Shown here piece after piece: positions 53,580 through 55,249 of a stretch of DNA of 64,000 bases. Every line of letters starts with the position of its first letter. Positions within the stretch are counted from its first letter, which is position 1. The notes below the pieces were generated by a model, which had not been told where the DNA came from, did no database searches, and saw only the letters and a list, made by a program, of their open reading frames with translations. The position numbers were made by a program, and so were the translations under genes. The DNA comes from Komagataeibacter sucrofermentans DSM 15973 (GTDB lineage: Bacteria; Pseudomonadota; Alphaproteobacteria; Acetobacterales; Acetobacteraceae), in assembly GCF_040581405.1 (NCBI RefSeq), contig NZ_CP137157.1, positions 328,001 through 392,000 on the forward strand. Reading direction: 5' to 3'.

Positions 53580-54374
53580 ATGCGCGGGCGTATTCTCATC
53601 ATGGCGGGCAGCGATAGCGGGGGCGGCGCTGGCATCCAGGCGGATATCAAGACCGTAACCGTGCTGGGCGGCTTTGCCATGACCGCCATCACCGCGCTCA
53701 CCGCGCAGAATACGCTGGGCGTGCAGGCGGTCATGCCGGTCTCCCCTGCCTTTATCGTGACCCAGATGCGCTGCGTGATGGATGATCTGGGCGTTGATGC
53801 ATTCAAGAGCGGCATGCTGGACCGGCCGGAGGTGATCGAGGCGATTGCCGATGTACTGCTCACCACCGCCGACATTCCCTACGTGCTCGACCCGGTCATG
53901 GTGGCGAAAGGGGGGGCTGCGCTGTTGCAGGATAGCGCGCTGGCCACGCTGAAGGCGCGGCTGCTGCCGCTTGCCACCGTGCTGACCCCCAACATTCCTG
54001 AAGCCGAGGCCCTGCTCGGCCATGCCATTGCCGGGCGCGCGGACATGGTGCCCGCAGCCCGCGCCCTGCTGGCGTTCGGCCCACGGGCCGTGCTGCTCAA
54101 GGGCGGCCATATGGAAGGCGATGAACTGCTGGACGTGCTGGTGCAGGCCGATGGCACGGTACAGGAATTCGTGAGCCAGCGCATCCATACTCGCCATACG
54201 CATGGCACGGGCTGTACGCTGGCAAGCGCCATAGCCACGGGGCTGGGGCAGGGCATGAGCCTGCCGGATGCCGTGATCCGCGCGCGGGCCTATGTGCTGC
54301 GCGCCATTGCGGCAGCACCCGGCTATGGCGCGGGAGCTGGGCCGCTGAACCATGGTGCAGGCGGCATGGGATAG
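53580..54374 (+). CDS. thiD: Hydroxymethylpyrimidine/phosphomethylpyrimidine kinase
   Basis: Phosphorylates HMP and HMP-P for thiamine synthesis or salvage. 264 residues, ribokinase fold. ILIMAGSDSGGGAGIQADIK at the N-terminus is the substrate loop, VLDPVMVAKGG follows near residue 102, and the catalytic Asp/anion hole lies in RHTHGTGCTLASAIATGLG near residue 205. It is 3 bp after glmM, so probably co-transcribed. Thiamine supply suits the two ThDP enzymes (Pdc, AlsS) at 9-14 kb, although they are not linked in the operon. Confidence 0.94.
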   Translation: MRGRILIMAGSDSGGGAGIQADIKTVTVLGGFAMTAITALTAQNTLGVQAVMPVSPAFIVTQMRCVMDDLGVDAFKSGMLDRPEVIEAIADVLLTTADIPYVLDPVMVAKGGAALLQDSALATLKARLLPLATVLTPNIPEAEALLGHAIAGRADMVPAARALLAFGPRAVLLKGGHMEGDELLDVLVQADGTVQEFVSQRIHTRHTHGTGCTLASAIATGLGQGMSLPDAVIRARAYVLRAIAAAPGYGAGAGPLNHGAGGMG

Positions 54375-54378
54375 GATA

Positions 54379-54393
54379 TTAATAATTCATTAA
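54379..54393 (+). promoter_or_regulatory. CtrA-box-like motif upstream of the CtrA-like gene
   Basis: TTAA-TAATTCA-TTAA matches the full CtrA consensus TTAA-N7-TTAA exactly in both half-sites and spacing. It lies 128 bp before the proposed start of the CtrA-like regulator, suggesting autoregulation or control by another CtrA. The region is AT-rich, so a chance match is possible. Confidence 0.5.
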
Positions 54394-54444: not shown

Positions 54445-54463
54445 AAACAACTTTAGGTTGTTT
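54445..54463 (+). promoter_or_regulatory. Inverted repeat 1 in the ctrA-like leader
   Basis: AAACAAC-TTTAG-GTTGTTT, perfect 7-bp arms, 58 bp before the start codon. It could be a protein-binding site or an RNA hairpin. Confidence 0.45.
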
Positions 54464-54485
54464 AATACGACCGGCGCACTTATAG

Positions 54486-54508
54486 GTAGATATAGTGTAA
54501 ATATCTAC
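54486..54508 (+). promoter_or_regulatory. Inverted repeat 2 in the ctrA-like leader
   Basis: GTAGATAT-AGTGTAA-ATATCTAC, perfect 8-bp arms ending 12 bp before the ATG. As RNA it would place a hairpin directly ahead of the ribosome site and could control translation. Confidence 0.5.
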
Positions 54509-54520
54509 TGGATGGTCGAT

Positions 54521-55249
54521 ATGCGGATTTTGCTTGTAGAGCCCAATGCCCGGAAAGCCGAAGAGACCACCCGGCATATGGAGAGGGCCGGATTTACAGT
54601 AGATCATGTTGATACGGGGCATGATGGACTGGGAATGTTAAAGTCCTATAATTATGACCTTGCGGTCATGGAGGTGCGGCTGAAAGATCTCGATGGATTC
54701 GAGGTCATTCGGGTCAGCCGCGCGGCAAGGGTGCCCACCCCCGTGCTGGTCCTGTCAGAGGAGCGCGATGCCGCCACAAAGGTGAAGGCCTTCTCCACCG
54801 GGGCGGATGATTATGTGACCCGTCCCTACGAATCGATGGAACTGACAGCGCGGATGCAGGCGGTTATCCGCCGCTCCAAGGGTTATAGCGAGCCGACCCT
54901 GCGCGCGGGGCCACTTGAACTGTGTCTTGATAGCCGCGCGGTCAGCGTGCAGGGGCACTCTGTGCACCTGACCGGCAAGGAATACATGATTCTGGAGCTG
55001 CTCCTGCTGCGCAAGGGCATGGTCCTGACCAAGGATGCCTTCCTCAACCATCTGTATGGCGGGATGGATGAGCCGGAAATGAAGATTATCGATGTGTTTA
55101 TCTGCAAGCTGCGCAAGAAATTGCAGGTTGCGGGCGCAGGGCAGCTCATTGCCACCGTGTGGGGGCAGGGCTATGTGCTGCGCGACGAGACCCCGGCCCT
55201 GTCTGTAGCACCCTTTGGTGCCCCGAGGGCGCAGGTAACGGTTGCGTGA
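54521..55249 (+). CDS. CtrA-like response regulator with degenerate receiver (Glu at the phospho-Asp position)
   Basis: 242 residues, OmpR/PhoB class. The C-terminal winged helix (residues 129-222) is nearly identical in pattern to Caulobacter CtrA: VHLTGKEYMILELLLLRKG, FLNHLYGGMDEPEMKIIDVF, CKLRKKL and WGQGYVLRD. The receiver aligns without gaps but is altered: the acidic pair after Glu7 (EDD in CtrA) is EPN, the phosphoacceptor Asp51 is Glu51 (DLAVMEVRL), and the conserved Lys of TKP is Arg101. Phosphorylation by CckA-ChpT is therefore unlikely; Glu51 mimics the active state. The C-terminus is about 11 residues longer and ends VTVA. A CtrA-type box and two inverted repeats lie upstream. Confidence 0.88.
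   Translation: MRILLVEPNARKAEETTRHMERAGFTVDHVDTGHDGLGMLKSYNYDLAVMEVRLKDLDGFEVIRVSRAARVPTPVLVLSEERDAATKVKAFSTGADDYVTRPYESMELTARMQAVIRRSKGYSEPTLRAGPLELCLDSRAVSVQGHSVHLTGKEYMILELLLLRKGMVLTKDAFLNHLYGGMDEPEMKIIDVFICKLRKKLQVAGAGQLIATVWGQGYVLRDETPALSVAPFGAPRAQVTVA

Follow-up and report, generated by a model that had tools for sequence, protein, structure and literature searches.

The window, i.e. the whole 64-kb stretch of DNA that was analysed, carries a ctrA gene downstream of a thiD-type gene, and the features of this locus are compiled in Table 1. The AlphaFold2 model of the encoded protein adopts the usual fold, with a mean pLDDT of 85.6 that drops in the C-terminal tail (residues 224–242), and full-length proteins of the OmpR/PhoB type head its fold matches when these are ranked by E-value; the matches also include CosR and 2hqr, an atypical orphan regulator. 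The modelled receiver superimposes on that of PDB entry 4qpj, which contains a CtrA chain, with an rmsd of 1.0 Å, while the DNA-binding domain carries the CtrA signature FLNHLYGGMDEPEMKIIDVF. The Rhodobacterales CtrA model was the top NCBIfam match at 307 bits, below its cut-off of 350, and the nearest named relatives of the protein are from Komagataeibacter species (up to 95% identical). In a tree of the family, the protein falls inside a clade of 47 rows that contains acetic acid bacteria (the starred clade). Judged by these comparisons, the gene is a CtrA orthologue and the sole one in its genome. A search of this genome (99.99% complete) for a second CtrA, including one with Asp51 and an intact Glu-Asp-Asp motif, yielded none, the next best regulator being 35% identical, and exactly one match at 1e-50 or better was obtained in each of 19 congeneric genomes, the present one included. 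The term paralogue, as used for this gene in the original prediction, is thus not appropriate.

Table 1. Features of the ctrA locus, with positions in the window.
Feature	Position	Strand	Basis
thiD-type gene (hydroxymethylpyrimidine/phosphomethylpyrimidine kinase), preceding ctrA	53580..54374	+	TIGR00097, 302 bits vs cut-off 205
CtrA box TTAA-N7-TTAA, 142 bases upstream of ATG; likely autoregulation site (predicted)	54379..54393	+	motif scan
Imperfect inverted repeat CAACTTTAGGTTG, upstream of ctrA	54448..54460	+	kept in 18/19 congeneric genomes
TATAGGTA-like conserved stretch; perhaps a -10 region (guess)	54481..54488	+	alignment
ctrA ORF, ATG start, 242 aa; pseudo-receiver and winged-helix DNA-binding domain	54521..55249	+	homology, PF00072 + PF00486
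Receiver domain, residues 1–119, degenerate phosphorylation site	54521..54877	+	alignment + AF2 model
Pro8-Asn9 replacing acidic pair Asp-Asp	54542..54547	+	alignment; Pro8 in 19/19 congeneric genomes
GAG = Glu51 at phospho-acceptor position	54671..54673	+	alignment
CGT = Arg101 replacing conserved Lys	54821..54823	+	alignment
Winged-helix DNA-binding domain, residues 125–222	54893..55186	+	PF00486 + AF2 model
Helix 184–203; recognition helix inferred from position	55070..55129	+	AF2 model
WGQGY of the wing, residues 214–218	55160..55174	+	alignment
C-terminal tail ending VTVA, mostly disordered in model	55187..55246	+	pLDDT <50 at 224–242

The gene order at this locus is shared by close relatives, as ctrA adjoins thiD in 37 of 80 named loci (within the available DNA), all 37 of which belong to Komagataeibacter, Novacetimonas, Gluconacetobacter or Acetobacter. 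Among the relatives that possess ChpT, ctrA often lies near chpT (within approximately 7 kb in at least 19 of 88 ChpT-bearing genomes, as read from coordinates), and the acetic acid bacteria therefore have a different ctrA neighbourhood.

The receiver was aligned with 226 relatives and with a Caulobacter CtrA sequence that we take to be the reference, and whose receiver hits the CtrA chain in PDB 4qpj at an E-value of 2e-58. This alignment bears out the predicted exchanges at the phosphorylation site (Table 1), and the protein represents a receiver fold without catalytic residues, in which the phospho-acceptor Asp, the acidic pair and the Lys are all missing. Additionally, Pro55 is replaced by Lys, while Glu7, Ser79 and Asp97 are kept. 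A sequencing slip in one strain was ruled out as the source of Glu51, which is found in six further congeneric genomes, encoded by GAG or GAA. According to a passage of PMC12632262, Glu at the acceptor position (D), Asn at the second acidic position (DD2) and Arg at the Lys position are common in pseudo-receivers, and the idea of Glu as a phosphomimetic is described there as attractive yet disproved in some cases. Hallmarks of CtrA are indeed present in the DNA-binding domain; however, WGQGY, which had been named as one of them, does not qualify, as Caulobacter has WGRGY, as do 21 of the 32 rows of one alignment. In this 32-row alignment WGQGY was common to Komagataeibacter, Novacetimonas and Gluconacetobacter rows and absent from Acetobacter rows, and one may guess that the exchange alters DNA contact. 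A terminal AA is present in 51 of the 78 ChpT-bearing and 15 of the 49 ChpT-less family genomes scored, so the C-terminal end of CtrA is loose in general.

Upstream of the gene lies the sequence TTAA-N7-TTAA, which we take to be the CtrA box motif. It is the sole exact copy in the 64-kb window, where 0.01 would be expected. Of the 18 congeneric genomes that could be evaluated, 16 retain it between -141 and -148, with middle bases that vary; no TTAA boxes with spacings of 5, 6, 8 or 9 were detected within 200 bases upstream of ctrA in the congeneric genomes. The two exceptions are G158, in which the box is one base off and ctrA is frameshifted (in the 900 bases compared, this sequence shows no difference from K. 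rhaeticus LMG 22126), and G154, in which ctrA is intact. At the matching place, the box was absent from the Novacetimonas, Gluconacetobacter and Acetobacter loci examined. Genome-wide, TTAA-N7-TTAA is not enriched relative to other spacings (N5 13, N6 11, N7 10, N8 11 and N9 5, among the 50 of 63 matches listed), and the whole TTAA-spacer pattern, counted as exact full boxes only, is rarer than in a reversed control (63 versus 95). As exact boxes are not enriched genome-wide, the CtrA regulon may be tiny or built on another motif; since the box is, in addition, absent from the related genera, autoregulation would be the only target supported here. The single congeneric exception to the conservation of the inverted repeat CAACTTTAGGTTG is L054, which is cut by a contig start and differs in sequence at that point. 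No other copy of this repeat was found in the 64-kb window, even with two mismatches, and similar sequences occur upstream of ctrA in Novacetimonas. The TATAGGTA-like element was not picked up by a promoter scan.

CtrA is a textbook regulator whose power rests on a phosphorelay. In the genome under study the Pfam ChpT model had no match over its cut-off, nor did it match at an E-value of 0.01 in any of the 19 congeneric genomes, while the same model finds Caulobacter. Calls made with this model alone are partly ambiguous, as kinases match it, and they were replaced by those of a family profile, which was built from 19 family ChpTs and run on 150 family genomes, adding G027, G109 and G130. The profile behaved in a bimodal manner, with 88 of the 150 genomes at 4.2e-21 or better, followed by kinase fragments from 8.3e-9, and returned nothing up to 1e-3 in the present genome and two congeners. 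Similarly, a family CckA query gave no orthologue up to 1e-70 in these three genomes. CckA orthologues were taken as matches of approximately 2e-85 or better, a threshold that represents a judgement on a continuous ranking and by which CckA is called in 72 of the 150 family genomes; the NCBIfam CckA model was dropped because it lacked specificity, matching 136 of the 150 genomes at 1e-60 without exceeding its cut-off in any. That neither orthologue was found supports the proposed independence of this CtrA from CckA-ChpT, although a CckA that has diverged past the threshold, or a phosphotransferase unlike ChpT, might yet be present.

CtrA was taken from 130 of the 150 family genomes, and three of these genes (L236, L238 and L239) are cut or split before residue 51, leaving 127 to be scored; among the other 20 genomes, two gave no match at 1e-20 and the remainder gave weak or unlisted matches, and nine of the 20 have ChpT. 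With an intact site defined as a Glu-Asp-Asp/Glu pocket together with Asp51 and Lys101, the site was intact in 75 genomes with ChpT and six without, and degenerate in three with ChpT and 43 without (Fisher's test, 1e-23, descent ignored). Sorted by residue 51, ChpT is present in 77 of 95 Asp, one of 27 Glu, neither of two Ala, neither of two Arg and not in the one Ser genome, and none of the 27 Glu51 genomes has a CckA call. These figures supersede a first cross-table based on Pfam labels, in which split genes were counted (Asp51, 75 with and 20 without ChpT; other residues, 2 and 33). Three of the six intact-site genomes without ChpT are less than 90% complete (G039, G075 and G087), the others (G013, G041 and G099) not being below this value.

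The starred clade, obtained from a tree built without trait columns, has no ChpT at all. Besides acetic acid bacteria it contains broken-pocket Asp51 rows (G056, G071 and G132) and some long branches of unsure placement, and its residue 51 is Glu in 29 rows, Asp in 16, and Ala and Asn in one each. On a reduced tree, which leaves out 14 long rows, ChpT presence requires eight changes and residue 51 seven, against a shuffled minimum of 23, while residue 51 needs 14 changes on the full tree, which joins several long branches. An independent-pairs test of Glu51 versus ChpT loss, using Pfam-based labels, was not significant (six starred-branch pairs, of which at most two were informative). The association between site and ChpT is thus real as a pattern, but because there is one ChpT-less clade and the pairs test is not significant, it rests mainly on one old loss in the acetic acid bacteria. 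Outside the starred clade, Glu51 occurs in G081/G146 and G148, which have no ChpT, and in G133, which has it. G133 (L154) and L127 combine Glu51 with an otherwise intact pocket, ChpT and no CckA call, and G133, as the one exception to the pattern, possibly represents an early stage. The ChpT-less L226, L229 and L240–L244 encode CtrA-like proteins in which residue 51 is Ala, Arg, Ser or Glu and most of the pocket is gone. L114, a metagenome-assembled genome titled Asaia bogorensis, stands apart from the other acetic acid bacteria by its Asp51 and intact site; its sequence is near that of the oddly named L108, and we suspect that its label is wrong.

Of the 80 named loci, 26 belong to Acetobacter, Gluconacetobacter or Novacetimonas, and all 26 encode Glu51; Acetobacter also retains the remaining site residues, with Glu-Asp-Asp and Lys found in the majority of its rows. 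The 19 Komagataeibacter genomes have Glu (seven), Asp (ten) or Asn (two) at this position, together with an invariant Pro8 and Arg101 and with Asn (12), Val (six) or Cys (one) at residue 9. As the pocket is broken in all 19, the Asp51 congeners are also without a normal site. The original prediction had allowed for relatives with Asp51 and a recent mutation in this strain; the former do exist, with a pocket that is equally broken, while a recent mutation is contradicted by the occurrence of Glu51 in a seven-genome clade and in related genera. The path within Komagataeibacter may have run from Glu to Asp and back to Glu or involved several changes from Glu to Asp, the tree being compatible with both. 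Glu51 is thus a trait that acetic acid bacteria have inherited, yet it is not clearly what makes the protein active, since residue 51 varies among Glu, Asp and Asn within the genus and the pocket is always broken. Among the open-access papers listed (titles and the beginnings of abstracts), none reports a lineage-wide CtrA D51E or Glu51 in acetic acid bacteria, and the CtrA passages of PMC12733265 and PMC13214618 contain nothing on it.

The mean dN/dS among 15 intact congeneric genes (105 pairs) is 0.095 for the receiver and 0.065 for the DNA-binding domain. The ratio of receiver to DNA-binding divergence is 1.70 in 25 acetic acid bacteria versus 1.30 in 68 ChpT-bearing relatives, the former set being hand-picked and omitting divergent rows (such as L225, L229, L235, L237, L240 and L243) as well as the Asp51 rows L022, L023 and L170, and the ChpT-bearing comparison sets omitting seven long-branch rows. 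Variability has risen most in helix alpha-1, which we take to be a contact with ChpT, while helix 184–203 is slightly more conserved than in the ChpT-bearing relatives. To judge from these substitution patterns, ctrA is under purifying selection, its DNA-binding domain above all.

In our opinion, the CtrA of the window is probably a relay-less, phosphorylation-independent and self-regulating pseudo-receiver form of the regulator, which is dispensable in some species. The ancestors of Komagataeibacter would have lost the CckA-ChpT phosphorelay and, with no phosphodonor left, the receiver would have decayed into a pseudo-receiver by steps whose order may have differed between lineages: Acetobacter would have acquired Glu51 with its pocket intact, a related Asp51 group would have lost pocket residue 8 first and, within Komagataeibacter, residue 51 would have drifted among Glu, Asp and Asn once the pocket was gone. 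Because the protein, and above all its DNA-binding domain, is under purifying selection, it presumably continues to recognise CtrA sites in its unphosphorylated form, or at any rate the conserved box of its own promoter, and its amount (governed by autoregulation and possibly proteolysis), not phosphate, would determine its activity. At the loss of the relay, Glu51 may have contributed to maintaining the active state, but in Komagataeibacter it is seemingly not required. In a model for Rhodobacter capsulatus, outlined in a passage of PMC6363796, unphosphorylated CtrA activates gafA. More tentatively, and as a possibility rather than a probability, an acetic-acid-bacterial ancestor that had lost CckA-ChpT could have kept its motility and cell-cycle master regulator active by means of D51E, rendering it relay-free and autoregulated, and Komagataeibacter could later have made Glu unnecessary, such that Glu, Asp and Asn now coexist. 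If true, the presence of these three residues in one genus would constitute a ready-made evolutionary series and a natural D51E experiment.

Glu51 might also act as a strict natural phosphomimetic that imitates phospho-Asp, locks CtrA in its active state and is kept by selection. Its constancy in the named loci of the three related genera and its presence in seven of the 19 congeneric genomes would fit, as would the simultaneous variation of position 8 (12 Ser, five Pro, four Asn and four others; n=25) and the finding, given in a passage of PMC12186491, that an engineered ctrA D51E allele, called phosphomimetic, can stand in for ctrA in Caulobacter, although the cells then spread more slowly in soft agar. 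We nevertheless regard this possibility as rather unlikely, as the Asp51 and Asn51 congeners are nested in a mostly-Glu clade and the window CtrA has lost both Lys101 and Pro55. The phosphomimetic role assigned to Glu51 by the original prediction is therefore weakened: the residue itself is real, but the genus mixes Glu, Asp and Asn in a pocket that is broken throughout.

ctrA is broken in four of the 19 congeneric genomes. In G160 (L057) an insertion of 930 bases, with inverted ends and a 278-residue transposase-like open reading frame, interrupts it after codon 56, in G151 everything after codon 114 is lost, DNA-binding domain included (within the available DNA), and G158 and G163 carry frameshifts near codon 165 and codons 199–207, respectively, the G163 sequence being identical to K. 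xylinus K2G30 over 900 bases. The gene is thus non-essential where it is broken, and dispensable in several species. FlgI had no match in the genome under study, which presumably is therefore without a flagellum. A passage of PMC8116508 proposes that CtrA originally served motility, and such a role would fit the erosion of ctrA in non-motile species. These lesions and the missing FlgI could indicate that Komagataeibacter is in the process of losing ctrA and that the present copy has little or no function. This, however, appears unlikely given a dN/dS of 0.06–0.10 in the intact copies and the conserved promoter box; furthermore, an intact ctrA occurs both with FlgI (G060) and without it (the present genome and G135), and the frameshifts, which make up two of the four lesions, come from draft assemblies and could be sequencing errors.

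Phosphorylation of CtrA at another residue, by some other kinase or a small-molecule donor, is highly improbable. Candidate kinases do exist, with 14 HisKA matches in the genome; among them, an HDFNN-type hybrid of REC-PAS-kinase-REC architecture (L261, G000:C1:813342) is the closest to CckA seen there. Yet this hybrid reaches 331 bits where the CckA cut-off is 1000, Glu is not a usual phospho-acceptor, and Asp8, Asp9 and Lys101 are gone. Finally, antagonism or by-passing of a normal CtrA in the same cell by a paralogue, the former also raised by the original prediction, is hardly conceivable with no second CtrA in this genome or in the 18 other congeneric ones.

The relay-free pseudo-receiver CtrA that we favour resembles the OmpR/PhoB-type CtrA of Caulobacter and other Alphaproteobacteria in its DNA-binding domain (FLNHLYGGMDEPEMKIIDVF), in domain order and in the TTAA-N7-TTAA upstream of its own gene. 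It differs from Caulobacter CtrA in being without the acceptor Asp, the acidic pair and the Lys, in having no detected CckA or ChpT orthologue beside it, in its WGQGY and in a tail that does not end in AA. To our knowledge, the pseudo-receiver proteins HP1043, CosR, ChxR and NblR are not CtrA orthologues. These OmpR/PhoB-type proteins, whether orphan or otherwise atypical, likewise need no phosphorylation to bind DNA (PMC5253667, PMC8345958, PMC3960148 and PMC3938529; for NblR, titles of works cited in PMC12632262); unlike in these cases, the family considered here includes relatives with an intact, relay-equipped CtrA. The engineered CtrA D51E of Caulobacter and R. capsulatus carries the identical substitution, as given in passages of PMC12186491 and PMC6363796, but is otherwise wild type and acts with the relay in the cell, whereas the window CtrA is natural, lineage-wide and broken in the rest of its site. 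That relay parts are missing in the Rhodospirillales was already known: passages of Brilli 2010 (PMC2877005) and of a 2021 survey (PMC8116508) state that these bacteria keep ctrA more often than chpT and cckA, and the state of the CtrA site is absent from those passages, to which the present CtrA would add a relay-free pseudo-receiver form. Brilli 2010 (PMC2877005) further mentions, in a passage on this relay, cckA without chpT in some genomes, while no CckA orthologue was found here.

The retention of CtrA with loss of both the relay and the phosphorylation site would show how such a switch can be unwired, and the close natural variants (Glu, Asp, Asn and broken) allow the direct question of whether a glutamate at the acceptor site is truly phosphomimetic. 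Additionally, control by CckA-ChpT should not be read into the label 'response regulator CtrA' when it is given to a protein of acetic acid or cellulose-making bacteria. As a separate observation, GANTC is strongly depleted in the window (positions 1–64000), with 66 occurrences versus 189 expected, which would fit a CcrM-type methyltransferase.
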